DNA of 64,000 nucleotides from contig JASXTE010000010.1 in assembly GCA_030280995.1 (NCBI GenBank), forward strand, positions 27,141,823 to 27,205,822, written 5' to 3'. Shown piece after piece: positions 13,743 to 48,335 of the stretch (the stretch's first letter is position 1; every line of letters starts with the position of its first letter). This DNA comes from Hemileia vastatrix (Eukaryota > Basidiomycota > Pucciniomycetes > Pucciniales > Zaghouaniaceae). The position numbers and the translations under genes are program-made. The notes under the pieces were generated by a model. It did no database searches. It was not told where the DNA came from and worked only from the letters and a program-made list of their open reading frames with translations.

Positions 13743-13746
13743 TTTC

Positions 13747-13763
13747 TGGCACCCAACATGGGG
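13747..13763 (+). promoter_or_regulatory. Primer-binding site of element D
   Basis: TGGCACCCAACATGGGG, four bases after the LTR end. E has TGGCGCCCAAGGTGGGG at the matching place. It would pair with the 3' end of a host tRNA to start minus-strand DNA synthesis. Confidence 0.7.
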
Positions 13764-13834
13764 TAGGACCTTCTTGTTCTTTAAAGTTTTTGTTGTCTTT
13801 TGTTGGCCCTTTTTGGTTATTTTGGTCTGGAGGA

Positions 13835-17021: not shown

Positions 17022-17248
17022 GTGGGGCTGATGACACAAGTGCCGCAACCTCTCCCCTTTCAGTGGAAATCCCAGGTTGTAGTAGGTCAGCTCATTAGGA
17101 GATATTCCAAATGGATTTTCAACTTTCTCTGCATAATTTTTCTCTTCTCTTAAAGTATTATTCAAATTTTTCATCAAGTCTCTGTTCATTTAATGGTTTC
17201 AAATTTATTTTATTTCAATTTCAAGAGGAAAGATGGGGTTTATGTCTA

Positions 17249-17690
17249 TGGAATGGAAAAGCTTTGGGGCAGTGAGATTGGAGTCTAAAAGTAAGTCCTC
17301 CCAATTGTGCACCAATAGGGTTTTTTCTACACCTTTCAAAAAACATTACCTTGGCCACACATGTGAGCAAGTGTGCAACCCTGGTTTTTATTTTAGGAAA
17401 GGTGCCTCATCAAATAAAGAAGAAAAAAAATTCAAGATAATTGAAGATAATAAAAAAAAAATCTGAAGATAAAGAAGAAAGAAGATCAAAAAAAATTATT
17501 TCAAGATTATTTGCTGAAGAGGTGAAGAGTGGTGGAATTGAGGTTGGTAGTGAGGAGGAGAATGAGAATATGGAATGGAAAAGCTTCGGAACAGTGAGAT
17601 TGGGGTCTAAAAGTATGTCCTCTCAATTGTGAACTACTAGGGTTTCTCCTACACCTTTCAAAAACATTACCTTGGCCACACCCATGAGCA
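17249..17690 (+). repeat. Direct duplication (320-bp offset) in element D pol linker
   Basis: The about 120-bp block starting ATGGAATGGAAAAGCTT at 17249 recurs at 17569. Both copies run through CAGTGAGATTGG, CTACACCTTTCAAAA and CATTACCTTGGCCACAC. E has no such duplication. Confidence 0.85.
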
Positions 17691-17839
17691 TTGGGGAAAA
17701 CCCAGTTTGTTTTTGTAGGAAGACTGAAGAAGCTCCTCTTGAAGATGAAGATCTGGAAGTGGATGCTGCTAAATACAAGAAGGTAGAAGTGAAGGTTAGG
17801 CCTTTCAATGAGACTATGTAAGTTTGGCTGAACCCACCT

Positions 17840-18823
17840 TTGAAGAGGCCTCCTTTGTCAAGAGATCCTTATGTGTCTCCTTTAGTGAAGAATCAACCTG
17901 ATTTTGTGGAGACTGCTAGGATTACTGAGGAAAGGTTGGAGGTAGCAAATTTCAGTCCTGATGTGTGGTTATCTGAAGAGGAGAGGAAGTTGTTGTTGAA
18001 TGTGATGGTGTTGAGGGAAAAGGCAATTGATTTTGCAGAGGAGGAAAAAGGTGTGTTGAAACATTCTTATGGTTTACCTTATCTTATTCCAGTGGTTTTT
18101 CATGAGCCTTGGAAAATCAAACCAATTCCAACTCCTGCTGCTATAAGGGATGATTTTTTGGAGGTTGTCAGGGAAAGGTCTAGGACAAGGTTGTATGAAA
18201 AGTCAATCTCAAGTTATTCTAGTCCTTTTTTCTGTTTCAAGAAGCAAAATGGCAAGCTCAGGGTGGTTCATGATCTCAGGGCCTTGAATAGAGTGACTAC
18301 CAAGGATACTAGAATGCCACCAAGTGCAGAGGATTTTCTGGAGGCATTTTCTGGAAGGGTGTGCTACGTCTTGGGATATATTATGGGTGGTTATGATGAG
18401 AGGGAAGTCCATGTGGAAGCTAGGCCTCTCACAACTTTTGAGACTCCTTTGGGCAGGTTTCAATTGACCAGGTTACCTCTAGGAGCTACTAATTCTGTTG
18501 GTGTTTACCAGGAACAGATGGCTTGGATATTTCAGGATGAAGTGCCAGCTTATGCTGGTATTTTTATTGATGATGGTGGCATTAAAGGGCCAACTTCTGA
18601 TTATAATAATGAGGTATTGAAGGAAAACCCTGGCATTAGGAGGTTTGTGTGGGAGTATGCTGTGAAACTGGAGAGGATTTTTTTTAGGATAGAGGAGGCT
18701 GGTTTGATTGTCTCAGGGTCCAAGTTTTGCTTATATGTACCAGAATTGGAGATTTTGGGTCATGTGGTGTGTAAAGAGGGTAGGATTATGTCAAAGAAGA
18801 AGGTTAATGAAATTCAAGCATGA
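17840..18823 (+). CDS. Element D reverse transcriptase segment (open, 327 codons)
   Basis: Uninterrupted RT-bearing piece collinear with E: a conserved pre-RT block (LSRDPYVSPLVK...LLLNVMVLREKAIDF), then fingers and palm (SSYSSPFFCFKKQNGKLRVV, DLRALNRVT) and the catalytic motif FIDDGG in place of the usual YxDD. It ends in the connection towards RNase H (MSKKKVNEIQA). The stop at 18821-18823 replaces a Trp seen in E. It lies in a dead element and is open only by chance or relative youth. Confidence 0.8.
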   Translation: MKRPPLSRDPYVSPLVKNQPDFVETARITEERLEVANFSPDVWLSEEERKLLLNVMVLREKAIDFAEEEKGVLKHSYGLPYLIPVVFHEPWKIKPIPTPAAIRDDFLEVVRERSRTRLYEKSISSYSSPFFCFKKQNGKLRVVHDLRALNRVTTKDTRMPPSAEDFLEAFSGRVCYVLGYIMGGYDEREVHVEARPLTTFETPLGRFQLTRLPLGATNSVGVYQEQMAWIFQDEVPAYAGIFIDDGGIKGPTSDYNNEVLKENPGIRRFVWEYAVKLERIFFRIEEAGLIVSGSKFCLYVPELEILGHVVCKEGRIMSKKKVNEIQA

Positions 18824-19700
18824 CCAAGACCAAAGAATACCACTGGAGTCAGGGGATTCTTGGATGTTTGTGTCTATGTGAGGATTTTTATTAACAACTT
18901 CTCTTTGTTGGCTAGTCCTTTAAGGAATTTTAAAAGGAAGGATTCTGATTGGGAGTGGGATGATAATTGTTAAGAGGAATTTATGAAATTGAAGAAGGTG
19001 GTAGGGGAGGATATTGTGTTGCATAAGCAGGATTATGGTGTTGGGGCTGGGAATATTTATTTGGCTCTGGATTCAAGTTATATTACTGCTGGTGATGTTA
19101 TGTCTCAGGAGGATAAGTAAGGGAAGGTCAGGACAGTCAGGTATGAATCTGAGGTAGAATCAAGGTACTCTCAGCCAAGTTGGAGCTCTGTGGTGTGGTG
19201 AAAATCTTGAAGAAGTTTTAGACTGTTTTGTGGGGGCAGAATTTTGAGCTGCAGGTGTATACTATATCTTTGGTGCAGATGATCAACCCTACTAGTCTCC
19301 CTAATGCTCCTATGACTAGGTGGGTTGCATTTATCAAGCACTTCTCCTTTGATTTGGTACACAAGCTAGGAAAAACTTTTACAATGCCAGATGGATTGTC
19401 AAGAAGACCACCAAAAGATGAAGATTATGAATCAGAAGAGTATGATGAAGATGTTCCTGTGTCTAGGGCCAGCACCAGAGAGGTGCTGATAATTTTTCTG
19501 ACCTCCAGCAAGAGATTAAACTGTACAATTTGGACCTCCCCCAAGAGATAAAACTGGCTGGATCTGATCTTGATTCTGGTGATTAGGATGTTTTTGTTGA
19601 TTAGGAAGGGGCTGTTGTTTGGGATGACTCAAATTTAGAAAATGTTGTTTTTGTCGTTATACTGGATTCTCAAAAAGTTTAGTGGAAGGAGAAGAATCTG
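18824..19700 (+). pseudogene. Element D RNase H and linker, broken
   Basis: Remains of RNase H (LALDSSYITAG, RYESEVESRYSQP) with several stops, then 19228-19551 with WGQNFELQV...TMPDGLSRRP, the RNase H end and the tether to integrase. TAG at 19219-19221 sits at the same codon as a TAG in E (54400-54402). Two hairpin-motif copies (19500-19523, 19533-19556) encode the LQQEIKL and LPQEIKL-type peptides also repeated in E. Confidence 0.8.
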
Positions 19701-19748
19701 AAAAAATTTAAAGATTGGTGTCCTAGATGGGCTGGTCAATCGGCTCAT

Positions 19749-21112
19749 GTGCATTCTGGTGATTTTGATGACAGGGTTGTGCCCTTGAATGTTATTTTTT
19801 TGGATTTTGAAGATGAGACCTGGGGTCAGTCTGAGTTTTATGTTCTTATAGTGGAATATCTGTTGACCTTGGAGAGGTCAGATAGCTATGATGATGATAC
19901 TTGGGTAGCAATCAAGAAAAAGAGTCCTGACTTTTATGTGTCAGGAAGAAGGTTGATGAGTAGGAGACATCCAAATACTCAGGATGTGGTGACTCAGAAG
20001 AAGGTTCTAGAGTTGGATTTAAAGTCTTTGCATGAAGACCTTGATCATAGAGGTTCTGGAGGGATGTATAGAAGAGTAGCAGACAGATTTTGTTGGCCTG
20101 GTATGAATTTGGATGTCCAAATTTTGGTCCAATCTTGTGAAGAGTTTCAGAGAAGAAGTCACTTGAAACCAAAAGAGGTTGGCCATGCTACTGGAGAATC
20201 AACTGTGTTTGGAAGGGTCAGTCTGGATGCTGTCCATATTAAAGAGGGCAGGTATAAATATTTGATTGTGGCCAGGGATTATTTATCTGGTTGGGTTAAG
20301 GCAGTGACTCTGGTTAATTTGACTTCCAAGAATGTGGCAGGATTCTTAAAGGAGTGGATTTATAGGTATGGGCTGATAAAATTAGTTACTGTTGATGGAG
20401 GACCAGATTTTGGAGCAGAAATCAAGGAAGCTATTATTAGTGTTGGGTCAAATATCAGAGTGGATACTCCTTATTATCCTGAAGCTGAAGGCATGATTGA
20501 AAGAGGGCATTAAGTGTTGAAGGATGCTTTGGTCAAGATGTGTGGGGATAGTGCTGAAAAGTAGGGGCATTATTTACCTCTGGTTTTGTTTTCTGACAGA
20601 ATTATTGTCAAGAGGACTACTGGATACTCACCTGATAAACTTTTTTAGGTCAGAAGGAGGTTTTACCAGTAGATTTGGAGGCAATTTCTTTTTTGGGAAT
20701 TGATTGGGATGAAGTTTGTTCAATTGAAGACTTATTATGTGCCAGAATGAAGAAGCTTGAAGGAAAGGAGGAATTTCATGAAAAAGACTATAAAAGGATG
20801 ATGAAGATCAGGAATCAGTCAGTTAGGTATTGGGATAAGCTGTTGTCACACAGGCTGAAGAATCCTTTAAAGCCTGGGTGGTTGGTATTGGTGTACAATA
20901 GGAGTTTGGAGAGTCAGTGGGGCAAGATGTTCTCTGACAGGTGGAATGGTCCTTATAGAGTCAGATCTCAACTCTCAGGATGACCACATCAGTTAGAAGA
21001 ATTGGATGGGGAAGTCTTGAAGAAGAGAGTGGCTACTGGCCAGGTGAAGAGTTTTTATCCCTGAGGCACAAGAAGGGAAGCAGACTAACTCTGCAATGAG
21101 GATAAACTATGA
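19749..21112 (+). pseudogene. Element D integrase, broken
   Basis: 19749-20513 carries the HHCC finger (HEDLDH...CEEF, second Cys of the final pair lost to Phe) and the DDE core (VSLDAVHIKEG, TVDGGPDFG, YYPEAEGMIERG; 34 residues between the second D and E as in E). TAA at 20511 replaces Gln. Further stops follow near 20563 and 20645. 20675-20983 holds the C-terminal part with the GPY/F block DRWNGPYRV. The final NEDKL-stop is encoded within a hairpin motif (21089-21110). No chromodomain follows. Confidence 0.85.
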
Positions 21113-22559: not shown

Positions 22560-23992
22560 TTTTCCTTCTGAGAAATGGATTTTTCTCAGTTACTCCCTGC
22601 TTAAAAGTGTCCTTTTGAGGTTTGTCTGACCTTCAGGGGGGTAATTTGGCCACATCAAACTACTTCTATTTCCATGATTGACCAAAACATCATCCTCATT
22701 CCCATCTAAAGAGTTGATCTCATCTGACTGTGGCTGATCAAAGGGGTCCACCACAAGTTTAGCAAAAATTTTGGTGAACACTGTTTTGATGGAGAGTGAA
22801 TAACTGGTGCTTTCTGAATTTTTCCACCTGAAGTTAGGCTAAACTTCAGGAGGATAAATTTATTATGAATACCAAATTAACTGAAGGATACTTTTGCCAT
22901 AGCTACTCTGCATCATAAAAGTCTCCAACTGAGGCTTAGCCATAATTCAGGTAGACACTTTTGAAAAGGCACAGTCTGATGGGTTTAATATCTATATATG
23001 GCAATAAGTATCATTTTTTTATCAACATGGAACTAGAATTAATTTAATATGGCCAAAGTGTCCACCTGAAGTTTGGCAAAAATACAGGTGGAAATTTTTA
23101 TGAGGATTATTTGATGAAATGAAGAAGACTTGAAATTACTTTCCATCATAAAATTTTCAAACTTAAGTTTATAAAAAATTGTGGTGACACTTTTGCCAGA
23201 TCCAGTCTTATGGGATCAACTCTCTATATGGCAATGAGAATCAATTTTTAGTCAATCATGGCATTAGAAGTAATTTGATATGGACAAACTTTCCACCTGG
23301 TTTTTGGCCAAAAATAAGTTGGAAATGTTTATGAGGAATACTAGACTAACTAAAGAAGACTTGCACCCTACTACTGTCCATCATAAAAGTGTCCACCAGA
23401 AGAATTCTCAAACTTGTGGTTGACACCATTGGCCTGGTCAAGCCATATGGGGTCAATTCTGCATATGGAAATGAGGATTTAATTTGGTCAATCATGGTAC
23501 TAGAAGTAATTTGATATAGACAAAGTGTCCAACTAAATATTGGAAAAAAATCAGTTGAAAACTTCATTTAGTTTTTCAAAAAATCAAATTAAGTACAATT
23601 TTATTCCTGATGATGCCCATTTTATCCAACACCTCTTCTGAGCCTTGAAAGTAGGCATACAGCTTAAATTTTTAATTTCATATAAAATCCCTTTTATTCA
23701 ACCTATTTCTTTTTATCCCTTTTTTTTCTTTTAGATATCAATTAATTTTATGTAAAACAAATCATTTTCATAATTTTTTGCCTGTATTTAATAAAATTAT
23801 TAAAGGTTTAACATCACCCTGTAAGAATTTGGCACATGTTTTTTTGCTATACCAATGAAAATAATAATATACTTGTGACAAAAAATTGATCAAATGATAA
23901 AATATTAATAAAACAGAAAGATCAAATACCAGTGGATATGTTTTAAAAAAATACCAGTTGCACTGAAGAAGAGCTGCACCCTAGATACTCAC
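22560..23992. repeat. Satellite, older short-unit form, left of element B
   Basis: Diverged units about 226-243 bp apart, recognised by CATCATAAAAGT near 22912, 23151 and 23378, by GATGGGATCAA-type blocks and by CTATATGGCAATGAG. They lack the roughly 370-bp AT-rich part of the 605-bp units, which appears only after 23570. The first unit (about 22595-22790) is inverted relative to the rest. Element B interrupts the array at CTCAC (23988-23992). Confidence 0.7.
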
Positions 23993-25128
23993 TGTCGGTC
24001 AGTCGTCTAGAAGAGATAAGAAAAGAGGGAAGAAATGAGAGGAGGAGAAGGAGGAAAGGAGTATGGGTAATAAAAGAAATAAAATTTAATAAAATTATTT
24101 AATTTATTGAGAGAAGGCAACGATGAGTGAGCTGAGAAGAGACAACAAATTGGTTTTATAAATATTATTATTATTTAAGTAAGAGTTCTGCGCGGCAAAC
24201 AATATAGTTACTATCAGACTTAAGGCAACCTTTAATTTGTTATATAGACTTTTAATTAGAATTGTATTACTAATAAAAAAAATATAAACGTAGTAAAATA
24301 GTTTTTAATTTGTTGAGTGTATAATAAGTGATAAGGCTACAGGGGATTATCCAAGGCCCTTTTATAGGCAATGGGTCCTCTGAAGCGCTACTATATCAGT
24401 AAATACAATGATTAGAAAGGAATAAAACAAACATATCAAAAGAGTAAATGAAACATAACAATATAGAGAAAAACATGAAACAAATAATTAAAAACCCAAT
24501 TAAGAATCCAATTTCCCCGCCATTAATCCCCAAATCAGTAAGTGACAATAGTGAATAACTAAACAAGATTGGAAACATAGGAACTATGAGAAATATAATT
24601 CCCAACAGATGGTACATTCTGATTAGAGGACATTTTAAGTGAAACAAAAAATAATTTGACGCAACAAAACAAGCAATTAATCTCAATTTAGTCCAAATTA
24701 ATTTATTTGTTTTTTCTAACACAATTAAGGGTCAAAAGAAGTGTCCTTAATAATTGTTTAGTATCATATGAGAGGTATTAGTTAATATATAAATTTAAGT
24801 AATTAATTTAAATATATTATAAATCAAATTTACACTTGTAATTATAATATATGTTTTTTAATTAATTAAATATAAATTTATAATTATTAAATACATAAAA
24901 ATGCGCCATTATTTGTAGAATATATTATATTATGCTCAATTTAATTGTATATAAAAATATATATAACCAATAAATTTAATGTAACATTTGTATATAATAA
25001 AATTCTTATATAATTTCATTATGCAATAAAATATTAAGTTATATTCATTAAATACAAGTCTTACCCACTCTTTAAGGTTTTATAATTTATATATCATTTA
25101 CTGGACTCCTGGAATAGCCTGGCTGACA
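23993..25128 (-). repeat. 3' LTR of element B (1136 bp)
   Basis: Element-strand ends TGTCAGCCAG and CTGACCGACA. TATA box TATAAAAGGG at 24357-24366. The 108-codon hydrophobic ORF inside (24396-24722) is duplicated with the LTR and is not treated as a gene. Confidence 0.97.
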
Positions 25129-25140
25129 CTCCCTCACTCT
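25129..25140 (-). promoter_or_regulatory. Polypurine tract of element B
   Basis: AGAGTGAGGGAG on the element strand, touching the 3' LTR; identical in element C. Confidence 0.8.
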
Positions 25141-25164
25141 AAAAAAAACAATAAAAAAAAAATG

Positions 25165-28100
25165 CTAAGATTTTTTCTTTTTGTATTTTTTCAACAGAGC
25201 AGGCAGATTTGAAATTTCTTTGCCAGGTATCCATGCATCATGTTCAGATGATTTGTTCTTATATCTCAATAAATATTCAGTACCTCTTTCAGAAGTGATA
25301 ATTCTATCATTGAGAATTTTATCAATTTCTGCTGTTTCTGTGACTTCCTGAGGGTTCTTCTTAGGTCTTCCTCTTCTTTTTGGAAATAAGTCACTGTTGG
25401 AAGTATAAGGTTTAAGCAAAGAAATGGGAAAGACAGGATGTTTCCTATCATATGGAGAATACAATACAACTTCTACTGCATTATCACCAACCATTCTTTT
25501 AACAACAAATGGTCCTACAAAAGGATCTTTTAATTTGTGGTTACCTTGTAAATTGAAATGGACAGTAGAGATCAACACTTCTTCACCCTTGTTAAATGTG
25601 TATTCTTTATGGGATTTATCCCATCTTTTCTTTTCATATTCAAATGCTTTATCAATACAACTCTGAGCATGTTTTCTGCATAGCTGTTGCATTTGCATAA
25701 AAGATTTTACACCAGGGTGTAGTTCCAACTTAGGTAATTTATTATTGAGAATCTGAGCAGGAGTGTTTGGGACATAACCTAACCAAAGCTCAAAAGGCTT
25801 TTTCTCAGTGACAGAATGAACAGTGCTATTATATGCAAATTCAAGACCAGGCAAAAGAGTGACCCAATCATGAGTAAATCTGTCATTGTCTTTATATTCT
25901 AAACCAAAGGCACAATACCTTCTAATCATATCTTCCAGAGTTTGAATCATTCTTTCAGCTAGACCATCAGTCTGAGGATGGTGAGCTGTAGACAATTTTA
26001 ACTCACAGCCACAAATATCCATCAAAGAGGTCCAAAACTCAGAAGTGAATTTTGGATCCCTATCAGAGATAATGGCTTTTGGAAAACCAATAATATTAAA
26101 CATGTAAGACCACCATAAGAAAGCTAATTCTTTGGTGGATACATCTTTGTGGGTTGGAATAAATTTGCACATTTTTGTGAATCTATCAACTATTACCCAA
26201 CAAGAGTTAAAGCTGTCTTTACCTGCAACAGGAAGACCAGTGACAAAATCCATATTAATGATTTGCCAGGGAGCACTAGGTGCTTCAATATGTTGTAATA
26301 ACCCTGCTCTCTTACCTGTTAACCTTTTAGATTTTTGGCAGGAATCACAAGATTCAACATATAATTTTGTGTCTTCAGACATATTAGCCCACCATGCAGT
26401 GTTTTTGATTCTAATCAATGTTTTTTCAAGATCAAAATGACCAGCTAATATGTCATCATGACAAAGTTTGAGGATAGTTTCTTTCATTGAAGGAGGAATA
26501 ACAATTACATTGGTAAGCTTCCTTCTATAATAAATATAACCATCTTCAATAGAAAACTTTCCTTTATTTAAAGCATTTTGGTATTTTGCAGGAAGAGTTT
26601 TTATTAATGCTTGAATTGAAGCATTCTTAGGATCATTCAAAATAGTAACTAATTTATTTAAGTCAGAATCTTTATCATATGAATCCAGTATTAACTGTAA
26701 TAACTCTTCTTCCATATCAACTATAAATATACCATGTATATGAACAGTGTCATCCTCAGGTACATAAGCAGGATTGGAGTCATTATTTGGCAGAGGCAAT
26801 CTGGAGAGCATATCAACATTAGAGTGAACATTTCCAGATCTGTGGATAATAGTCATCCTTCCTCTGTATTCCTGAACAGCAAGTTGCCACCTGAACATAT
26901 GTCTGTTAGGTGTTTTGAGGTTTAAGAGAGATTTCACAGCACTACAGTCAGTTACCAACTCAAATTTTTGGTCATCCAAGTAGTAATGAAGTTTCTCAAG
27001 AGCCCAAACAACTGCTAAGCACTCCAATTGAGTGGCACCATATTTCAATTCACTATTTCTTAAGGTTCTTGAAATATAACAAATTACAACCTCTGAGGAT
27101 TTATCATTAATAATTTGCTTTTGGTGAAGGGCAGCACCCAGACCAATAAAGCTAGCATCTGTATAAAGTACAAATGGCTTGTTAAAATCTGGGAGAGCCA
27201 ATATAGGGGCTGTCATTAAGCAATTTTTCAATGTATTAAAAGCTTTCTGACAGTCATCATTCCAGAGAAAAGCAACATCTTTTCTGGTTAGTTTTGTAAG
27301 AGGCAAGGCTATGACCTGATAATTTTTAATATATTGTCTATAATAGCCACACATACCCAAAAAACTTTGGATTTCTCTTACAGAAGTTGGTGCTTTAACA
27401 TTTTGAATGGCAGCAACTTTATTATGGTCTACACAAATTTGTAAGCCTGACACAACATGGCCAAGGACTTTCAAAGATTGAAAACCAAATTTACACTTTT
27501 TTAAAGATAAGGTCATATTGATTTCATCCATTTTTTGGAAAACTCTATTTAAGTGAATCATATGTTCATCAAAAGTTTTAGAAAAAACAATAATATCATC
27601 AATATAAACCATGAGCCAACCTTCAATAATTTCTTGATGGAAAGTGTTATCCATGACTTTCTGGAAAACTGATGGAGCATTTTTAGGGCCAAATGGCATC
27701 CTAACATACTTATATATTCCCATATGAGTAGCAATAAGCAAAAAATTTTGAGAATTTTTCTCAACTGGAACTTGATGATAGCCTTTATTACCATCCAGAC
27801 AACTAATAAATTTTGCACCTTGCAAGGTAGCATGTATTGAATTAATTCTGGGTAAAGGATAAATATCATCAACAGTATAAGTATTTAAAGCTCTGTAATC
27901 TCCACATAATCTAGCTTTAACTTTTTCATATGAAATCAAGACTGGGGAGATGACACAATATTTAGGGGTGACATTCACTTTTTCAATGATATTCATTTTC
28001 AATAATGTTTCAATATTATCTTCAATATCTTTTCTTTTTGATGGAGAAGCAGGAGATGGTTTTTTCTTAAGGGAAGGAGGAATATCACTCAAATTACAGG

Positions 28101-31100
28101 ATAAGGTAATTTTCATCTCTTCCTGAACAATTCCCAAGACATGAGAACCATGAGCAAAAGCCATAGGGAAAGAGGTAATAGAGGCAACAATAGAATCCTT
28201 TTGCTCATTAGTCAAATGATCACCAAAAGAAGCGGTATTTATTTCATGTAATAAATCATCCATTTCAGTTGTTGTTCTACCTTCACATTGGGTCAGTGAG
28301 TTACAAGATTTCAACAAATGCCCAGAAGGTTTAGGAGAAGAAATTTTGAATTTTCTTTTCCCATTCATTCCTAAGGTAAAGCAATTATTTGCTGGGTCCA
28401 GTTTCACACCAAACATGGTTAAAATATCATTTCCCATAATAAACCAATTGCTCAAATTATCATTTTTCATGACAACAAACTCACAAATAGCTCTGACAAA
28501 ACCACCATTATATTTGAAGAATACAGAGGTTTTGTATTTGCCAATAGGAAATAAGGTAGAACCATACCCTCTCCATTTTTCAGAAGTTATAGGCAATAAT
28601 TTACTCAAATATTCCTTATCCACTGAAGCCAAAGCTTTTTCAGATACTACACTTCCTCCAGCACCAGAATCAAGAACTACATCAACATTTTTACCATTAA
28701 TGATAACAGGTGCTTTTAAAGGGGATATAGGAATAGAATTGTTAGTAATATCTTTAATTATCTCAGCATTTTCTACTGAAGATAAATTCAATACACAATC
28801 TTCTGATACATTATTTAAATAATGGACATCATGTTCCAACATTAAAACATCTTTAACAGATTCATTGTCATAGGAGATATTACTTTCACAGTCACTGGAA
28901 GAATTATTGACATCAAGTTCAATTTCATCAGTGTCTTCATTTTGTTCAACAAGATGAATTTTCTTGTCACAAACATGACCCTTCTGCCACGGTTTGTTAC
29001 ATTTATAACAAGTATTTGTTGCATATTTTTTAGGTGCAACTGGGGCAGAGGGTTTACCAGATTTTTCTGGGAGCTTTATAGAAGGTTTATTCTGATCATT
29101 ATAAGATTTACTAAGGTAATTCTTTGGTTCATATCTATGGTTGAGTAGTACTTCATTACAGATATTAATGAAAGAAGAATTTTCCCTTACATGCTCAGTT
29201 CTAGCAACAATCAAATCACTAAGAGAATTTGGTAATTTATACAAGATTTTATCTCTCCAAATATCATAATCCATCTTTGGATCAATTGCTCTAAGGATTT
29301 TAGTTAATTTCATCAGAAAAACAATGGGCTTTTCAACAGAGGAGGATACATATCTAGTATTCTCATACAGTCTTTGCTGAGCTAACCTGAATTTTGAACC
29401 ACCAAACTGATTCTCAATCAAGGATTTCCAATCATTCCATGTATAATGATTGTTATCTAAGAGGACAGATTCATACCACATCAAGGCTACATTGGAAAAT
29501 AAAGAAATTAGCTTAGAAACAATCTCCTCATCAGGTAGTTTATAAGATCTCTTTAAATTATCAATTCTCTGGATAAAGTGTTGCCAATCAGAGGAAGAAT
29601 CACCATCAAAGGTAGGATATTGGTCTAACTTAGGCCAATTTTTCTGACTACTGGGATGGTCCACTTTTTGGTTTGAATTATTCATTATTAATAATTCCTG
29701 AAGTTTAGCCAGGTGTTCAGAAATTTCATTATTTACAGAAACAGCTGGTGCATGACCATCACAAGATTTTTTGCTAGTAGCAAAAGATTTTACAGACTCA
29801 TTGTCAGTTTGTTTAATGGTTGAAATATGAGGAAGAAAGGATGAACTTTGCTCAGGTCTTTTCCCTTTATTTTTATGCAGCTTATTTACAGAAATCTCAT
29901 TTAATTCATTATTGGTGTCTAAGGTTGAGAACTTTTCCTGTAGGTCAGACACATAGTTTCTTATTCTTGGAATTTCAGACATCTGGTCATTTACTTTTGC
30001 AAGAGATAGAACATTTCTGTCCTCAGAAACTGAGTGCTTGGTACTTAGTGCATGGAAATCATTTTTTAGCTTCTTAAACTCATTTTGCAGAGATTTTATT
30101 TCATTTTTGAATGAATAATTTTCCTCAATAAGGGGTTTCAGTTCACTCAAGGTCTTATGTAGACTGATATTTCTATCTGAGATAGCTCTATGGTCACTTC
30201 TTATTTGTTTTTGTTGACTAAGAACAATATTCAAGGTTTCTTTGATTTTTAAATAAGCTGTATCTTGTACAGAAGAACTCACTTTACATTGCAAGTGTAA
30301 ATTATTTAATCTATCATTTTCATGGATTAACACATCTCTCACATGTTTGTCTTTTACAATATTAAAATCAAGGGTATCTTTCAATATTTCCTCAGAAGTT
30401 TTTTCAATTAAGGTATAGATTTCAGGGGGAACAGAATCATTTTTAATTGCAAGAGAAGGATTAATTAAAGATGTAGAAGTTAAATGTAAAGGTTCATCAA
30501 ATGACAATTTGCTAATTACATCAATAGGGCTACTAGTTACAGGAAGCTGTCTTTTAACAGGTTTAACTGTTCTTTCACCATGTTCAATAATATTACCTGC
30601 AGAAGAAGATTTATTAGAAAACATACCCAAGTGACTATCAACCAAATTACTTACCATGGCAGAGGAGGAAACTTCCCCTGGGACTGGGTTTGGGATTGTG
30701 CTTGGGCCTTCTTTCTCCTGCTTTGTTGGTAGGGATGAGGAGGTGGATGGAAATTGGGTGTTCTGGATGGGCCAGGCTGATGATGAGGAGGGTGTTGCAC
30801 ATTCTGTTGGTAGTGACTCATTAGATAATCCCATTTCCATTGCTCTACTTCCATAGTATTTGGATTTTGGATGGTTGAGCTGGGTGGCTGTGAAGGTTGA
30901 GCCTGAAATTGAAGCTGATTGGGAGGCAATTGAGGAGGGGCCTGGGCCTGAATCTGGTTCCTGAGTTCTTGGACCTGATCCCACAATGTGTCTACCTTTG
31001 CTTTGTACGTCATATTTTCTGTCTTCAACTCTTTTATATGACTGGATAGGTTGCTGATTTGTTGTGGCAGAGGAAGCTTTTTTATTTTGAAGCCTTTTGG

Positions 31101-31332
31101 AAGACCTTCTTGAGGCACTAGAGGCTTTACTTCCTTCTGTGGTACTGGGGGAAGGGGGTTTGGTTTGTTTGCATTTCCTGTCATTTCCACATCCTGCAGT
31201 ATGTGAATTCTTTGTGTTAGCATAAGATTTTTTATGACCAACTTTAGAAGAACTTACAGTGTCAGCATCATAGTCAATTTCTATCTCATCCACTTGCATG
31301 TTATCCATTTTTTCTGCCAAATTGTTGGACAT
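25165..31332 (-). CDS. Element B Gag-Pol polyprotein (2055 aa), intact
   Basis: One frame encodes the whole retrotransposon machinery. Residues 1-300 are Ser/Gln-rich and low in complexity; 310-470 a likely coiled coil; 565-740 the capsid; 775-788 a zinc knuckle with C775, C778, H786, C788. Protease has DSG at 888-890. RT spans about 1095-1285 with YIDD at 1243-1246. RNase H has D1392, E1437 and D1462. Integrase has H1625, H1632, C1662, C1665 and the DDE triad D1695, D1757, E1793 (35 residues between the last two). Next come the GPY/F block FVGPF near 1940, an AT-hook-like RRGRPKK at 1986-1992 and a chromodomain at about 2001-2045. Gag and Pol are fused with no stop or shift, so Gag excess must come from processing, splicing or other control. 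The ATG used opens the conserved MSNN start shared with A. Confidence 0.97.
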   Translation of the reverse strand: MSNNLAEKMDNMQVDEIEIDYDADTVSSSKVGHKKSYANTKNSHTAGCGNDRKCKQTKPPSPSTTEGSKASSASRRSSKRLQNKKASSATTNQQPIQSYKRVEDRKYDVQSKGRHIVGSGPRTQEPDSGPGPSSIASQSASISGSTFTATQLNHPKSKYYGSRAMEMGLSNESLPTECATPSSSSAWPIQNTQFPSTSSSLPTKQEKEGPSTIPNPVPGEVSSSAMVSNLVDSHLGMFSNKSSSAGNIIEHGERTVKPVKRQLPVTSSPIDVISKLSFDEPLHLTSTSLINPSLAIKNDSVPPEIYTLIEKTSEEILKDTLDFNIVKDKHVRDVLIHENDRLNNLHLQCKVSSSVQDTAYLKIKETLNIVLSQQKQIRSDHRAISDRNISLHKTLSELKPLIEENYSFKNEIKSLQNEFKKLKNDFHALSTKHSVSEDRNVLSLAKVNDQMSEIPRIRNYVSDLQEKFSTLDTNNELNEISVNKLHKNKGKRPEQSSSFLPHISTIKQTDNESVKSFATSKKSCDGHAPAVSVNNEISEHLAKLQELLIMNNSNQKVDHPSSQKNWPKLDQYPTFDGDSSSDWQHFIQRIDNLKRSYKLPDEEIVSKLISLFSNVALMWYESVLLDNNHYTWNDWKSLIENQFGGSKFRLAQQRLYENTRYVSSSVEKPIVFLMKLTKILRAIDPKMDYDIWRDKILYKLPNSLSDLIVARTEHVRENSSFINICNEVLLNHRYEPKNYLSKSYNDQNKPSIKLPEKSGKPSAPVAPKKYATNTCYKCNKPWQKGHVCDKKIHLVEQNEDTDEIELDVNNSSSDCESNISYDNESVKDVLMLEHDVHYLNNVSEDCVLNLSSVENAEIIKDITNNSIPISPLKAPVIINGKNVDVVLDSGAGGSVVSEKALASVDKEYLSKLLPITSEKWRGYGSTLFPIGKYKTSVFFKYNGGFVRAICEFVVMKNDNLSNWFIMGNDILTMFGVKLDPANNCFTLGMNGKRKFKISSPKPSGHLLKSCNSLTQCEGRTTTEMDDLLHEINTASFGDHLTNEQKDSIVASITSFPMAFAHGSHVLGIVQEEMKITLSCNLSDIPPSLKKKPSPASPSKRKDIEDNIETLLKMNIIEKVNVTPKYCVISPVLISYEKVKARLCGDYRALNTYTVDDIYPLPRINSIHATLQGAKFISCLDGNKGYHQVPVEKNSQNFLLIATHMGIYKYVRMPFGPKNAPSVFQKVMDNTFHQEIIEGWLMVYIDDIIVFSKTFDEHMIHLNRVFQKMDEINMTLSLKKCKFGFQSLKVLGHVVSGLQICVDHNKVAAIQNVKAPTSVREIQSFLGMCGYYRQYIKNYQVIALPLTKLTRKDVAFLWNDDCQKAFNTLKNCLMTAPILALPDFNKPFVLYTDASFIGLGAALHQKQIINDKSSEVVICYISRTLRNSELKYGATQLECLAVVWALEKLHYYLDDQKFELVTDCSAVKSLLNLKTPNRHMFRWQLAVQEYRGRMTIIHRSGNVHSNVDMLSRLPLPNNDSNPAYVPEDDTVHIHGIFIVDMEEELLQLILDSYDKDSDLNKLVTILNDPKNASIQALIKTLPAKYQNALNKGKFSIEDGYIYYRRKLTNVIVIPPSMKETILKLCHDDILAGHFDLEKTLIRIKNTAWWANMSEDTKLYVESCDSCQKSKRLTGKRAGLLQHIEAPSAPWQIINMDFVTGLPVAGKDSFNSCWVIVDRFTKMCKFIPTHKDVSTKELAFLWWSYMFNIIGFPKAIISDRDPKFTSEFWTSLMDICGCELKLSTAHHPQTDGLAERMIQTLEDMIRRYCAFGLEYKDNDRFTHDWVTLLPGLEFAYNSTVHSVTEKKPFELWLGYVPNTPAQILNNKLPKLELHPGVKSFMQMQQLCRKHAQSCIDKAFEYEKKRWDKSHKEYTFNKGEEVLISTVHFNLQGNHKLKDPFVGPFVVKRMVGDNAVEVVLYSPYDRKHPVFPISLLKPYTSNSDLFPKRRGRPKKNPQEVTETAEIDKILNDRIITSERGTEYLLRYKNKSSEHDAWIPGKEISNLPALLKKYKKKKS
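30597..30654 (-). other. Intron-like 58-nt segment at the end of the overlapping ORF
   Basis: On the element strand: donor GTAAGT directly after CCATG (at 30654), branch-like TCTAATAA, pyrimidine tract and acceptor CTGCAG (ending 30597). Element A has the same signals. Removing 58 nt would end Gag about 20 codons later and leave the overlapping ORF ending at the same Trp-stop. C lacks the donor. It may be a real alternative intron or chance. Confidence 0.35.
30651..31241 (-). CDS. Overlapping ORF inside element B gag (+1 frame, 196 codons)
   Basis: Lies wholly within gag residues about 31-227, in the +1 frame. Visible parts: acidic/proline-rich start, LPKGFKIKKLPLPQQ, a heptad-rich helix (ISNLSSHIKELKTENMTYK onward), Gln/Pro-rich middle, W-K-W-D-Y-L, a His/Pro-rich stretch, basic SRRKK and the end PPLPW. 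Element C, whose gag start is strongly diverged, keeps the same +1 product: over the 46 residues from EGLPKGF to DQVQ about 27 are identical and most other changes are conservative, better than the gag frame over the same DNA. No known family was recognised. It might be an accessory or assembly protein, made by leaky scanning or re-initiation; that is inference. Confidence 0.7.
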   Translation of the reverse strand: MVIKNLMLTQRIHILQDVEMTGNANKPNPLPPVPQKEVKPLVPQEGLPKGFKIKKLPLPQQISNLSSHIKELKTENMTYKAKVDTLWDQVQELRNQIQAQAPPQLPPNQLQFQAQPSQPPSSTIQNPNTMEVEQWKWDYLMSHYQQNVQHPPHHQPGPSRTPNFHPPPHPYQQSRRKKAQAQSQTQSQGKFPPLPW

Positions 31333-32034: not shown

Positions 32035-33170
32035 TGTCGGTCAGTCGTCTAGAAGAGATAAGAAAAGAGGGAAGAAATGAGAGGAGGAGAAGGAGGAAAG
32101 GAGTATGGGTAATAAAAGAAATAAAATTTAATAAAATTATTTAATTTATTGAGAGAAGGCAACGATGAGTGAGCTGAGAAGAGACAACAAATTGGTTTTA
32201 TAAATATTATTATTATTTAAGTAAGAGTTCTGCGCGGCAAACAATATAGTTACTATCAGACTTAAGGCAACCTTTAATTTGTTATATAGACTTTTAATTA
32301 GAATTGTATTACTAATAAAAAAAATATAAACGTAGTAAAATAGTTTTTAATTTGTTGAGTGTATAATAAGTGATAAGGCTACAGGGGATTATCCAAGGCC
32401 CTTTTATAGGCAATGGGTCCTCTGAAGCGCTACTATATCAGTAAATACAATGATTAGAAAGGAATAAAACAAACATATCAAAAGAGTAAATGAAACATAA
32501 CAATATAGAGAAAAACATGAAACAAATAATTAAAAACCCAATTAAGAATCCAATTTCCCCGCCATTAATCCCCAAATCAGTAAGTGACAATAGTGAATAA
32601 CTAAACAAGATTGGAAACATAGGAACTATGAGAAATATAATTCCCAACAGATGGTACATTCTGATTAGAGGACATTTTAAGTGAAACAAAAAATAATTTG
32701 ACGCAACAAAACAAGCAATTAATCTCAATTTAGTCCAAATTAATTTATTTGTTTTTTCTAACACAATTAAGGGTCAAAAGAAGTGTGCTTAATAATTGTT
32801 TAGTATCATATGAGAGGTATTAGTTAATATATAAATTTAAGTAATTAATTTAAATATATTATAAATCAAATTTACACTTGTAATTATAATATATGTTTTT
32901 TAATTAATTAAATATAAATTTATAATTATTAAATACATAAAAATGCGCCATTATTTGTAGAATATATTATATTATGCTCAATTTAATTGTATATAAAAAT
33001 ATATATAACCAATAAATTTAATGTAACATTTGTATATAATAAAATTCTTATATAATTTCATTATGCAATAAAATATTAAGTTATATTCATTAAATACAAG
33101 TCTTACCCACTCTTTAAGGTTTTATAATTTATATATCATTTACTGGACTCCTGGAATAGCCTGGCTGACA
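32035..33170 (-). repeat. 5' LTR and promoter of element B (1136 bp)
   Basis: Near-identical to 23993-25128. The TATA box TATAAAAGGG at 32399-32408 sits about 765 bp into the LTR on the element strand, so transcription probably starts some 30 bases farther, within CCTTGGATAATCCCCTGTAG or just beyond. Confidence 0.97.
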
Positions 33171-35476
33171 CTCACCATCAAAAAAGTGTCCAGAACAAGT
33201 TCGGCCGAACTTGTGCTGGACACTTTTGGTCAGGTGCAGTCATATGAGATCAATTCTGGCTATGGCAATGAAAAAAATTATTTGATAAAAAACTTCACTA
33301 GAAGTAGTTTTACATAGCCAAATTTTCTACCTAGAGTTCATCCAAACCACAGGTGCACAATTTTTTATCTTTAAAAAAAAGTCAATTTAGTACAATTTAT
33401 CCCTGATGGCTCTCATTTGCTTCAACACCTCTACTGGCCTTTCATAGTAGGAATATTACTTGAATTTTTTTCTTCATATTTGATCCCGTTAACTTAATTT
33501 TTTATTCCTAATATTGCTTTTGGATATCAATTAATAATTTTTAAAATAAACTATTTTCATATTTTTATACATTTATTTAATAATATTATTAATGGCATTA
33601 CATCACCTGGTATGCATTTGGAACGTGAGTTTTTTCTATACTTATAAAATTAATAATATAATGGCAAACAAAAATTAATCAAATTATATTTATGAGTGAG
33701 GAAAAAAGATAAAATACCAGTAGACATGTTTGTAAGAAATACTAGATAAACTGAAGAAAAATTCTACCATAGCTACTCTCCATCATAAAAGTGTCCAGCA
33801 CAAGTTCGGCCGAACTTGTGCTGGACACTTATGGTCAGGTGCAGTCAGATGGGATCAATTCTCTCTATGGAAATGAAGATAAATTTTTGATAAAAATTAC
33901 ACTAGAAGTAGTTTGATATGGCAAAATTTTCATGCTGAAGTTTTGGTAAAGCTAAAGTGGATTTTTTTTTATTTTTACAAAAAAAGAAAATTTAGTGCAA
34001 GTTTAGCCCTGATTGTGCTAATTTGATTCAACATCTCTTTTTTCTGTTTATGGCAGGAATTTAACTTGGATTTTAATTTTCATCTTTGATTTCTTTTATT
34101 TTACTTTATTCCTCTCATATTGCTTTTGGATAGAAGTTTATTTTTTGTAAAATAAATCATTTTCATATTTTTTTACCTTTATTTAATAATATTATAAAAG
34201 GTGTAACATCACCCAGTATTCATTCGGCACACAAGTTTTTGCTATACTGATAATATTAATAATATAATGGTGACAAAAAATTAATCAATTGATAAATATG
34301 AGTGAGGCACAAAGATTTAATAACAGTGGACATGTTTATAAGAAATTCCAGATGATTTAAAATGACTTGCACCCTGGCTACTCTCCATGATAAGAGTGTC
34401 CAGCACAAGTTTGGCCAAACTTGTGCTGGAGACTTTTGGTTACATGCCGTCAGATGCAATCAATTCTTTTTATGGAAATGAGACTGAATGATCACTCCAT
34501 CATTGCACTGAAAGTAGTTTTATATGGACAAATTGTCCCCCGGAAGTTTGTCCAAACCTAAGGTAGACAATTTTTTACTTTGGTAAAAAGTAAATTTGAT
34601 CCATGTTAATCAATGATGGTGCCCATTTTTTCTGAAGCCTCTACTGGCTCATGATAGCAGAAATTATACTTAATATCTTTATTTCATGTTTGATCTCTTT
34701 AATTTTAATTTTACCCTTTTATTTATCCTTTAGCTTTTAAATATCAATTTTATTTTGGTAAAACTGATAACTTTCACATTTTTTTACATTTATTATATAA
34801 TATTCTTAAAGTTGTAAAATCACACAGTGTACATTCAGTACAAATGTTGTTTCTATACTAAAAACATTAATAATATAATGGTGACTAAAAATAATCAAAT
34901 AATAAATATGGATGACACAGAAAGATCAAATACCCATAGACATTTTTAAAATGAATATAAGATTTCCTGAAGAAGACTTTCACCCTAGATACTCTCCATC
35001 ATAAAAGTGTCCAGCACAAGTTCAGCTGAGCTTGTTCTGGACACTTTTGGTTGCATGCAGTCAGATGGGATAAATTTACTCAATGGAAGTTAAAATGAAT
35101 TTTTGCTCAATCATTGCACAAGAAGTAGTTTTATACTGCTATACTATCCTCCTGATTTTTTTGAAAACCTCAGGTAGACACTTTTATTAATTAAAAAAAA
35201 TGAAAATTTATTCCAAATCTAGAACTGGTGGTGCAATTTTGGTCTGAAAACTCAAATTTTCTTTGATGGCAGAAATTTTATTTGAATGTTTAATTTCATA
35301 TTTAATCACTTTTGTTTTACATTTTTATTCCTCTTTTTGCTTTCAAATATCAATTTATTTTTTGTAAAACTAATACTTTTCATTTTTTTTTACTTTTATT
35401 TAATAAGATTATTAAAGATGTAGCATTTCCCAGTATGCATTTGGCTTATAATTTTTTTAATACTAATAACATTAAT
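33171..35476 (+). repeat. Satellite array, 605-bp units with palindromes, between B and C
   Basis: Four units with palindrome centres near 33205, 33809, 34414 and 35026 (spacing 603-612 bp). Each unit has a long palindrome (arm GTGTCCAGCACAAGTTCGG and its complement), then CAGTCAGATGGGATCAATTCTC, a second imperfect inverted repeat, an AT-rich half and ATGAGTGAGGCACAAAGAT. No coding potential. Element C is inserted at TTAAT (35472-35476). Confidence 0.9.
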
Positions 35477-36277
35477 TGTCAGCCAGGCTACTAGACTTAC
35501 CCAGTGAAATAATTAATTATTTACTGGATGAAGCCGCACCTTATCATTTTAATTATTTAATTATAAATTAGTTACATTAAAATTACTTATAATAAATTAA
35601 CTAATTACAGAATGATAAAATTTAATGAATAATTAAAATTAAATATAAAATTGTCCCTTATATTTTTTCTCTAACACCGTGCTCATTTGACAGGTTGGAA
35701 GAAATAAAGATTTATATTAAAAAATAGATTTTAAATTAAAAAAAGATTTTAATATTCAAATAATATTAAAATATATACAAAAATTCAAATTTCTTATTTA
35801 GAATTGACTTCTACAGTAAATATTAAATAAATTGATGTATTTCTGACATACTCTGTAAATACATCTTTTTTACGCCTTCTTTTCAGAACAACTTTATTAT
35901 TTGAAAATACTCCTTCTGGAATATTCTTTTTCTCTCTCTCTCATACTACTGTTTTCAGAATTTGATTTCCATGCTTTGTCCCTCCTTTGCCTATATAAGG
36001 CCTCTCTTTTTGTTGTTTTTTATTCATTCCTTTACTACATTATTTTATTACAATTACAAACAACAAACTTATTCCTATATTTTAAAACATTAGTATTTAC
36101 AATAACATAGTTCTGATCTATAAATTATATCAATATTTTAAATCTACCTCTTTTATTTGAGTAATTAAATCACTTAGATTTAGAAATACGTACCAAATTG
36201 TTGAGAATCCATTTTAACCCTTAAAACTCTCGTAAAACTTCATACCAAATCTTCTAGACCAAAAGTGTACCTTGAAA
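35477..36277 (+). repeat. 5' LTR and promoter of element C (801 bp)
   Basis: Starts TGTCAGCCAGG and ends CCTTGAAA, where the 3' copy has CCTTGACA. TATA box TATATAAGG at 35992-36000 in the context TTTGCCTATATAAGGCC shared with the A/B LTRs. Confidence 0.95.
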
Positions 36278-37345
36278 ATTGTGAACCTTTCCGAAATATC
36301 AACGGCGCAACGTTAATTGAGACGTAATCGAAGGGACCATCGGTGTACAAGTACCTGTAAAGGACGAGAGAGGCGAGAAAACGACAAACGTCATACGTCA
36401 CGTGACAACAGTTTTGCTGCGAACAGGAATCGAACCGCGCTCCAAAACTTAGGTTCATATACTGACTAAACGTCGTATATATTGTGGTAATTATTGATAT
36501 TACTATTTGTGGGTTACTCTTCACTCTTCATTTGCTACGTATTTCCTTTTACTCAGCACTCTGTAAGTGGCATTAATTTGCTCATTTTACAGGGGGAGGT
36601 GTCTGGTAATTGGATTTTACTTTTATTATTATATTTTTATTTTATTTTTCCTGGTTGACCATAATAGAGCAATAAGTGTTCTTAGTCCCAGAAGTAATAA
36701 AATAATTATATTTTAATATTAATTATTATAATTTTTCAGTTGACATTTGTCCTGACTAATTTTAATTTTAATTGTTCCAGTTGACAAATTGTCCTGAAAA
36801 TAATATTTTTTTTAATTTATATATAATTAATATTTAATTACTTCAGTTGACTTTGAGTCCTGGGAATTCAATAAATATTTTAATTAATAAAACTCACATT
36901 TAATTATTTCAGTTGACATTAAGTCCTGGTAATTAAGTGATCAAGCTTAATAAAATTTTAAAATAAAAACTTATATTTAATTACTTCAGTTGACATTAAG
37001 TCCTGGTAGTTAAGTTATCAGTTTAATAAAATTTTGTTAAATTAATAAAAATTCATATTTAATTACTTCAGTTGACATTAAGTCCTGGTAATAAATTAGT
37101 TGATTTAAATCCTGAAAATAATTAATTAAAATTATTAATAAAAATTTTAATTTATTTCTACAGTTGATTATATTATAATCCTGGTTTTAAATTATTTTTT
37201 GAATTAATAAATTAATTTTATTTAGTTGATTTTTTATCATAAAAAGATTTTTTTATTTTATTTTATTTCTGTTAAATAAAAATTAAAAATAAAAAGACTA
37301 ATTAATCTTATTGTCTCTTTTTCTTCATTTCAGTTAAATCTTAAA
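36278..37345 (+). other. Element C leader
   Basis: About 1.07 kb between the LTR and the gag ATG. The first 200 bases resemble the B leader in outline (AACCTTTCC, TTTTGCTGCGA, TTAGGTTCATATA). From 36652 to 37183 lie nine hairpin modules. Just before the ATG, a pyrimidine-rich stretch ends TTTCAG (about 37333), which could act as a splice acceptor for a leader intron; no donor can be chosen with confidence. Confidence 0.6.
36652..37183 (+). repeat. Nine hairpin modules in the element C leader
   Basis: Each reads outer stem, unpaired TT, inner stem starting GA and closing TC, outer stem. Positions: 36652-36692 (outer CTGG/CCAG), 36737-36754 (inner GACA/TGTC), 36778-36796 (GACAA/TTGTC), 36844-36862 (GACT/AGTC), 36910-36928, 36987-37005 and 37069-37087 (GAC/GTC, loop ATTAA), 37098-37114 (GATTT/AAATC), 37161-37183 (GATTATA/TATAATC). 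The outer stem is CAG/CTG in most. Copies are about 35-80 bp apart. Confidence 0.85.
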
Positions 37346-38962
37346 ATGACTGACCAAAGTGGTTCTGCTGCACGTGAAGAAGAACTAGACTTAATTGATT
37401 ATGATGAGCCTACTTCTGTAAGTTCTCCTTTAACAAGAAGAATTTCTCAAACTAATAAATCCTTGCCCCAAACAGGATGTAGAGATGGAAGAAGTAGAAA
37501 TCCTAGTGGACACAACTCAGGATCAGAAGCCTATGATAAGCCCACCAGAAGAGCTTCCAAGAGGCTTCAGGATAAAAAAGATGCCATTGTCTCAGCAGGT
37601 AAAGAATCTGTCTACTCACATAAAAGAGTTAAGGACAGAAAGCTTGAGACTAAAGGTAAGGGTAGATGCTTTGGAAGAAAAGGTGAGAAGAACAGATACT
37701 TTTCTCCAAGAGAAGAAGAAATCTCTTCCTCCCAGGGATCAACAACAATTGGCTCCCCAGTCCCAAGAGAAGGTGGAAGTGTCCAAGTGGCAGTGGGACT
37801 GGCTAAACACTCAGTGGGACTACCTGGCTTAAAACCAGCATCAGTTACCTCAGGCAGGTCCATCAAGGCCCAACCAGGTCAACCCCACTCCTCCCCACCC
37901 TTATCAAGGAGGCAAAAGAAGGAGAAAGCCCAATATGGTGATACCCAGAAAACCCTGGTACGTCCCTCTATTGATTCTCAAGTGCCTTTTCTTGTGGCTG
38001 ACTCTGTTCCTTCCGGTAAATCTGGAAGGGAGGATGAAACCTTGAGACCTATAGAGGCTGGGAATAATAGACAGATATCTCATGTATCTAATCCATTACT
38101 TTTAATTGCTACCTCAATGATTAATCCTGATATGGCTGTGATTGATGAAACTCTTGACCCTGAGTTCTATGAGAGTCTGGAAAGTTACTCAGTTTCCTTA
38201 TTGAGAAACACTCCAGATGTAGAAAGAATTAATGATGAGAACTTGAGAGATATTATTTCCAAGCAAAATCATATAAAGAACAATATGCAATTGACTCAGA
38301 AATATAATAGTTTGTTAACTGATAAGGGTTATCAAGCATTAAGAAGTGAAGCACAGAGAGTCTCTGATGAATTGTCTCATTACAAAGCAACCCATGAAAA
38401 GAAAGTTGCTTTATGGCAAAATATAAAAAATGATTTGTCTAAACTAAAAGATACTGTATCTGCCTGTTGCAAGGAGGTAGAGGTAGATAAGATAAATCTG
38501 AAAAGATTGAATGACCATTTGTCATCTTTTCAAAATAAAAATCAGTTATCTTTTGCAACTATCAATGAGAGTTTATCTAGTCTTCCAAGAATGAAAACAA
38601 GACTAACAACCATTGAAGAAAAATTGAACTCATTGTTAAATGACCAAAAATATTCTGACTTTTCTGTGAAGGAACATATAGTGCAGGATGCTCAAATAGT
38701 ACCTGTGGCTAGTTCATCTAAAGTAAAAATAGCTCCAGAAATACCTGTTGATAACACTGAGTTTCCATCAAAAACTGATGATGCACCAGGATCTGCAACA
38801 GAAGGATTAAACAATGAGATTTCAGCCCAATTAGAGAAATTACAGCTGCTTCTTACTCAGAAACAAGCTAGTACTAAGGAGACTCCTTCAAATCAAAAAA
38901 GTTGGCCAAACCTTGACCAGTACCTAACAGTTGATGGTGATTCTTCCTCTGATTGGCAATAA
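37346..38962 (+). pseudogene. Element C gag, first open segment (538 codons)
   Basis: Gag N-terminus from MTDQSGSAAREEE: acidic start, basic RRASKRLQDKK block, low-complexity Ser/Gly/Pro region and a helical region (about residues 250-430), then the start of the capsid (SWPNLDQYLTVDGDSSSDWQ). TAA at 38960-38962 replaces the His codon of B (DWQHF). The frame reopens at once, so this is one point of damage in an otherwise collinear frame. Confidence 0.85.
37485..37832 (+). CDS. Overlapping ORF inside element C gag (+1 frame, 115 codons, shortened)
   Basis: Same +1 frame as in A and B. Conserved blocks LPRGFRIKKMPLSQQ, NLSTHIKELRTE, VDALEEKV and W-Q-W-D-W-L. TAA at 37830-37832 ends it after DYLA. 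Beyond that stop the +1 frame still matches the A/B tail (GPSRP..., PPHPYQ, basic cluster, terminal PW), so the stop looks like a recent truncation of a longer protein. Function unknown. Confidence 0.65.
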   Translation: MEEVEILVDTTQDQKPMISPPEELPRGFRIKKMPLSQQVKNLSTHIKELRTESLRLKVRVDALEEKVRRTDTFLQEKKKSLPPRDQQQLAPQSQEKVEVSKWQWDWLNTQWDYLA

Positions 38963-48323: not shown

Positions 48324-48326
48324 CAT

Positions 48327-48335
48327 CCTCCCTCC
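48327..48335 (-). promoter_or_regulatory. Polypurine tract of element E
   Basis: Element strand GGAGGGAGG a few bases before the LTR start TGGTAGCC. Confidence 0.6.

Follow-up and report, generated by a model that had tools for sequence, protein, structure and literature searches.

An out-of-frame exon within gag of chromodomain Ty3/Gypsy elements of Hemileia vastatrix probably encodes an accessory protein made by facultative splicing

We analyzed a 64,000-nucleotide stretch of the genome of Hemileia vastatrix (Pucciniales), hereafter called the window (GenBank assembly GCA_030280995.1, contig JASXTE010000010.1, positions 27,141,823 to 27,205,822, forward strand), which contains three related Ty3/Gypsy elements, designated A, B, and C. 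Our data indicate that facultative splicing within gag of these chromodomain elements very probably yields an accessory protein from an exon in the +1 frame. In the proposed mechanism, the unspliced RNA would serve both as the genome and as the message for one Gag-Pol polyprotein in the gag frame, and removal of intron 1 (58-64 nt) would link the gag start codon and an acidic leader of 24-25 codons to the +1 frame. The spliced RNA would then be translated into a coiled-coil accessory protein of 185-205 amino acids (aa) that ends in Pro-Trp-stop, with a second, 58-nt intron located at that stop. A preliminary description of the window had proposed a second gene hidden in gag. Its protein-coding +1 frame stands, but intron-less genomic copies indicate an exon spliced to the start of gag and not a free-standing open reading frame (ORF).

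The three +1 ORFs lie where that description had placed them, at 5823-6413 (minus strand) in A, 30651-31241 (minus) in B, and 37485-37832 (plus) in C, and all are in the +1 frame relative to gag. The TTG starts listed for the A and B ORFs simply mark where the first start-like codon follows a stop; conservation of the protein sets in at DVEM, immediately past the splice acceptor (31193 in B and 37476 in C).

Comparison of A with B reveals which of the two frames is constrained. In exon 2, their differences fall on gag codon positions 1/2/3 as 33/6/11, compared with 1/0/6 in exon 1, 19/15/37 in the next 764 bases past exon 2, and 36/27/142 in pol. The exon 2 pattern differs from that just downstream (p 9e-5) and from that of pol (p 1.5e-11; chi-square), with the excess falling on gag position 1, equivalent to +1 codon position 3. 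When the 50 exon 2 differences were classified by their effect in both frames, 29 were nonsynonymous in gag and synonymous in +1, 11 were nonsynonymous in both, 9 were synonymous in gag and nonsynonymous in +1, and only 1 was synonymous in both, with rate ratios per opportunity of 0.18 for the +1 frame and 0.63 for gag. In addition, the nonsynonymous-to-synonymous ratio (pN/pS) of the gag frame was 0.03 in exon 1 (a value resting on few differences, 6 synonymous and 1 nonsynonymous), 1.25 in exon 2, 0.27 after intron 2, and 0.14 in pol, and that of the +1 frame in exon 2 was 0.18. The preliminary description had held the +1 frame to be the more constrained and had suggested comparing synonymous and nonsynonymous rates in both frames; this comparison, run on A and B, places the constraint in the +1 frame, and conservation from DVEM to the terminal Pro-Trp (PW) between families points the same way.

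The same frame is conserved between the A/B family and the more distant family of C. Element C aligns with A in the +1 frame at 42 of 106 residues (E 1e-21). Identity in C had been estimated earlier at about 27 of 46 residues; in a 50-codon core of B versus C, we measured 26/50 in the +1 frame and, as anticipated, fewer (18/50) in the gag frame over identical bases. When B was aligned with three C-family copies, the +1 protein matched at 70-71 of 156 residues (alignment z 16-22), the gag frame at 46-47 of 147 (z 8-9), and the third frame reached a z of ~4. The W-x-W-D motif and the tail agree between families, and the tail match continues past the stop of C, as the preliminary description had noted: seven aligned C-family tails follow the B tail up to the common Pro-Trp. 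Moreover, both exon ends, DVEM and PW, are kept across families at 40-43% identity in the family alignment.

Further copies were obtained by searching the whole assembly (747.6 Mb, 791 contigs), from which 60 loci (30 B-family and 30 C-family copies, L001-L060) were fetched, ranked by +1 similarity. The stop of the window C copy (37830-37832) turned out to be private, since all 29 other fetched C-family copies read through it. The gag frame of exon 2 contains no stop in A and B, where 7-8 would be expected from a synonymous shuffle that keeps the +1 protein and its codons, and none in six of the seven C-family copies tested, with one stop in the seventh (5-6 expected). Across the first 2 kb, a gag-frame stop is found in 24 of the 30 C copies. 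Sequence constraint thus lies in the +1 frame; the gag frame is mainly held passable, kept free of stops because Gag-Pol must remain readable through exon 2. A constrained +1 exon together with a stop-free gag frame fits facultative splicing.

Both introns have recognizable signals. In B (minus strand), exon 1 (31258-31332), delimited from sequence and pN/pS, comprises 25 codons from the gag start (...IDYDADT) and is common to Gag-Pol and the spliced product. It is followed by intron 1 (31194-31257; 64 nt, GTAAGT...CTAAC...CTGCAG), found by signal scan and corroborated by intron-less loci, and by exon 2 (30655-31193; DVEM...PPLPW), which is in the +1 frame and dual-coding with gag according to the codon-position pattern, overlap rates, and family alignment. 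Intron 2 (30597-30654; 58 nt, GTAAGT...CTAAT...CTGCAG) was found by signal scan and is absent from one locus, L065; in B RNA that retains it, the +1 product would stop at 30651-30653. The corresponding features of A (minus strand) are exon 1 (6430-6504), intron 1 (6366-6429; 64 nt, GTGAGT...CTAAC...ATTCAG), exon 2 (5827-6365; +1 frame by codon-position pattern and family alignment), and intron 2 (5769-5826; 58 nt, GTAAGT...CTAAT...CTGCAG), both introns coming from the signal scan. Element C (plus strand) has a 24-codon exon 1 (37346-37417; ...IDYDEPTS), intron 1 from the same scan (37418-37475; 58 nt, GTAAGT...CTAAT...AACAG), a +1-frame exon 2 (37476-37957) delimited with the help of C-family copies, and a 58-nt intron 2 position (37958-38015) with donor GTACGT and acceptor CCG. 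The length of intron 1 is 1 mod 3 in all three elements, and its removal places DVEM of the +1 frame directly behind gag codon 25 (codon 24 in C); cross-family conservation begins at this DVEM and not upstream.

Scanning the opening 1.5 kb of each gag for the consensus recovered intron 1 in all three elements and intron 2 in A and B. The remaining matches were alternative intron 1 ends, seen in every element, and one unrelated pair in C, against a background of 0.4 matches per 1.5 kb in shuffled gag and 0.36-0.66 per kb in the window. Intron 1 is thus a GT-AG intron with a branch site that full-length copies retain: its GT donor is kept in 29 of 30 B-family copies (L001 has GC) and in 29 of 30 C-family copies, with the acceptor AG at the expected place in 29 of the latter. 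The GT donor of intron 2 is kept in 29 of the 30 B-family copies (lost in L003), and the acceptor CAG of this intron occurs in 28 of the 30 C-family copies. In A and B, the +1 product ends in PW (TGG-TAA) whether intron 2 is spliced or retained. The +1 frame continues for 28 residues beyond PW in 26 of 30 C-family copies, and joining across intron 2 gives PW-stop in all eight copies so joined. An acceptor that would return exon 3 to the gag frame was sought by eye in B and C, and none fits both.

Reverse transcription of a spliced RNA is expected to leave copies that miss exactly the intron, and such copies exist. The exact 26-base junction predicted for exons 1 and 2 of A/B occurs at 17 genomic places, and the reversed control pattern at none; it is likewise absent from all 60 loci L001-L060. 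In each of the six junction loci that were read (L061-L066), precisely gag offsets 75-139 are missing relative to B, with one base ambiguous. Intron 2 is still present in five of them, and L065 precisely lacks this intron as well, so that the end of exon 2 runs directly into the bases after intron 2. An intact 205-aa ORF from the gag ATG to PW-stop is found in four of the six, with L065 and L066 having stops after 45 and 94 residues. Taken together, the 17 junction matches and the precise loss in all six loci read indirectly indicate that spliced RNA exists. The six loci are mutually 92.1-99.0% identical; L061, L062, and L064 (98.8-99.0% alike) may share an ancestor, and L065 stands apart from the others. 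Given this spread and the position of L065, at least two intron-loss events are likely. L061-L066 also align to the LTR and leader, and reading from their gag ATG leads into the +1 frame and stops at or before PW. Because their gag start leads only there, these copies should have moved in trans.

The predicted product is 205 aa long in B and about 185 aa in the C family. Its exon 1 portion is acidic, and exon 2 encodes a proline/glutamine-rich stretch, the coiled coil with its conserved LPKGFKIKK-LPLxQQ entry, a W-x-W-D helix, and a basic tail that reads PPHPYQ-RRKK or KRRRK. The heptad a/d positions are L I L I L N Y V L V L I Q in B (10 of 13 hydrophobic) and L V L I L S L V L V T in one C copy (9 of 11). 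The preliminary description had proposed an accessory protein that combines a coiled coil with basic patches, and the A/B overlap test and the family conservation from DVEM to PW bear it out.

What this protein does is a separate question. As a tentative proposal by analogy, it may act in the nucleus as an oligomeric RNA-binding regulator through which unspliced genomic RNA avoids being spliced and is exported, like HIV-1 Rev and the CERV protein of the worm element Cer1; such a regulator would be made first, from spliced RNA, and the unspliced genomic RNA would be exported thereafter. The main alternative, for which there is also a tangible though limited chance, accepts the spliced protein as real and assigns it a self-limiting or assembly role of the Ty1 p22 type, or that of a nucleic-acid chaperone. 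A small product with a Gag leader, a potentially oligomerizing coiled coil, and a basic tail would suit such roles. However, the minimal Ty1 form, p18m, is a Gag fragment (PMC8458377), whereas exon 2 is read in a non-Gag frame, and it is export regulators that pair a spliced-only product with a genome retaining the intron. The export regulator can also be placed in a broader and more doubtful scenario, in which this chromovirus would have convergently evolved the circuit of a complex retrovirus: a splice-only overprinted gene, Rev/CERV-like, would switch the RNA to the exported unspliced form, and the retro-spliced copies would persist as trans-mobilized satellites supplying the regulator family-wide.

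Three other explanations deny the separate spliced protein itself. One of them, which we regard as improbable, holds that the main mRNA is the spliced RNA and that the true N-terminal part of Gag is encoded by the +1 exon, with a +1 slip at TGG-TAA returning to gag. Constraint does pass from gag to +1 and back to gag along a single line, the gag frame lies exactly one base ahead of the TGG-TAA end in the doubly spliced RNA, and +1 slips are used by Ty elements. Nevertheless, this account leaves the stop-free gag frame of exon 2 in A and B and the unbroken 2055-aa Gag-Pol of B without a role, and in those intron-1-less copies that keep intron 2 a +1 slip would hit a stop one codon on.

Less probable still is a classical overlapping gene whose translation from unspliced RNA would start at the DVEM ATG, through leaky scanning or internal initiation. 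This ATG lies four codons into exon 2 and is kept in all three elements, each time with a purine at -3, but several earlier ATGs occur in gag and intron 1, the DVE before the ATG is conserved whereas, by eye, the +1 frame just upstream in the intron is not, and use of the junction is evident from the precise intron losses. Finally, a chance ORF or RNA-level constraint with gag alone coding is scarcely credible: an open +1 frame is indeed unremarkable given the gag protein (P 0.19-0.34, codon shuffle), but the gathering of differences on gag position 1 is unexplained by any gag-only model, the +1 frame aligns better than gag between families, and precise intron losses exist.

Several observations weigh against a spliced accessory protein or its proposed function. 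Our knowledge of the splicing comes from genomic copies, and the junction evidence covers the A/B family and, for intron 2, a single locus (L065). The window C copy has lost the intron 2 acceptor (CCG), and the intron 2 donor varies among the 30 C copies (GTACGT in 19, GTATGT in 4, GTACAT in 3, GTAAGT in 2, GCACGT and GTACTT in 1 each). Stops in the +1 frame occur in 9 of the 150 C-family matches listed, and in 3 of 30 C copies (L035, L044, and L060, of which only L035 was among the seven shuffle-tested) the first gag-frame stop falls within exon 2, a decay that is expected because most C copies are dead elements. The polymorphism pattern of L001-L060 is biased by the ranking on +1 similarity and was not used as proof, so the comparisons free of this bias are A-B and B-C only. 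As for the protein, the AlphaFold model is weak, with helices at 42-84 and 111-132 and the remainder at low confidence (predicted local distance difference test 63.7, predicted template modeling score 0.26), and a scan for nuclear export signal motifs was uninformative, as 56-79% of shuffled sequences also have one. No significant homologue was obtained with the A +1 product, a nine-sequence profile of both families, or gag 1-850, and the function is argued by analogy because no homologue was found. In addition, viral contigs with gag-pol gave no match, a profile search of PDB gave nothing significant (best E 0.27), and Pfam gave only sub-threshold matches (e.g., bZIP_1, 21.2 bits versus 27.6).

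The host element is a Ty3/Gypsy chromovirus, with the Gypsy domain order, long terminal repeats (LTRs), and a short target-site duplication. In B, gag-pol is a single ORF of 2055 aa (25165-31332, minus strand) comprising a long N-terminal extension, gag, and protease-like, reverse transcriptase, RNase H, integrase, and chromodomain regions; Pfam domains follow in the order RVT_1, RT_RNaseH, Integrase_H2C2, and Chromo (31.0 versus a cut-off of 25.1), with an rve match under its cut-off (28.8 versus 32.6). The 5' LTR (32035-33170, edges approximate) and 3' LTR (23993-25146, inner edge approximate), both on the minus strand and read from the sequence, are 99.6% identical, and the 5-bp flanking repeat CTCAC lies at 33171-33175 and 23988-23992. 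The C LTRs are 99.0% identical and the 5-bp repeat of this element is TTAAT. Element A, truncated by the window edge and with its gag-pol split into several ORFs, is 92.9% identical to B over gag-pol.

With the B product as query, the best 150 of 17,678 first-look candidates were scored, all of them ~99% identical; with C, the best 150 of 19,357 candidates were 94-100% identical. The best 40 copies listed in a DNA search aimed at diverged families were 98-100% alike. One C-family copy, L046, matches window C in two BLAST pieces that part near the start of gag, which suggests recombination or a broken copy. In the leader of C (36807-37117), four repeats spaced 66-82 bases apart carry TTCAG-TTGACATTAAGTCCTG-GTAA or a near match; a short segment is flanked in each case by acceptor-like and donor-like motifs, an arrangement reminiscent of tandem mini-exons preceding gag.

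The elements are surrounded by a tandem satellite of ~606-bp units, with copies 60-93% alike (23675-23990, 33170-35498, 44200-47062, and 60474-62522), which looks centromere-like. A different LTR element of ~12 kb occupies 47166-60116, with repeat stretches 96-99% alike and minus-strand pieces of gag and pol, and a broken relative of it lies at 13724-20983 (plus strand). Antisense to its polyprotein, plus-strand ORFs at 48422-48871 and 50138-50923 have cysteine patterns, which we take to resemble zinc clusters.

An accessory protein whose frame differs from that of gag and is reached only by splicing is known for one LTR retrotransposon in the accessible portions of the literature, namely CERV in the worm (PMC10309623), and the frame-changing introns of plant elements described there give only a short Gag (PMC3735527, PMC12786077). 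Our literature search, covering the titles and abstract openings listed, with subscription papers and preprints outside its coverage, found no such gene described in a fungal element. The present case is compact, with at least 150 copies ~99% alike, and would show the CERV-type layout in another setting. Its function can be tested by ordinary RNA sequencing, and the precise intronless copies form a genomic record of splicing and trans-mobilization. Annotation of such elements as a single gag-pol overlooks a conserved protein.

HIV-1 Rev is an oligomerizing basic protein made only from spliced RNA, and the genome of the virus is the unspliced RNA. The likeness of Rev to the product described here is one of layout. 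Among plant elements, barley BARE1 is likewise a one-ORF element with a facultative, frame-changing intron (104 nt, GT-AG) that creates a subgenomic message, the unspliced RNA giving the polyprotein (PMC3735527). The new frame of BARE1 ends within a few residues and its product is Gag, whereas the new frame here is a conserved protein of 160-180 codons. EVADE (shGAG) and Ogre are named as further intron-bearing plant elements in PMC12786077. In yeast Ty1, p22/p18 arise from a transcript initiated inside GAG (PMC8458377) and resemble our case as a second small product of the GAG region of an LTR retrotransposon. A Ty1 p22-type restriction factor is understood as a Gag fragment read in the gag frame, and the present product departs from this type because its exon 2 is in the +1 frame. 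In its workings, the nearest analogue is CERV of Cer1, a Gypsy/Ty3 element of C. elegans; the likeness lies in layout, and we claim no membership in a CERV family. CERV is translated from a spliced mRNA with an exon outside the gag frame; it has a KRKK motif as well as a candidate leucine zipper, and export of the unspliced genomic RNA depends on it (PMC10309623). Shared with the present elements are a gag-pol without a stop, a spliced product that starts in the gag frame and continues in an other-frame exon, introns retained in the genomic RNA, a candidate leucine zipper or coiled coil, and a short basic motif resembling a nuclear localization signal. The difference is that the product described here lies wholly in the first 0.7 kb of gag and is built from one dominant +1 exon.

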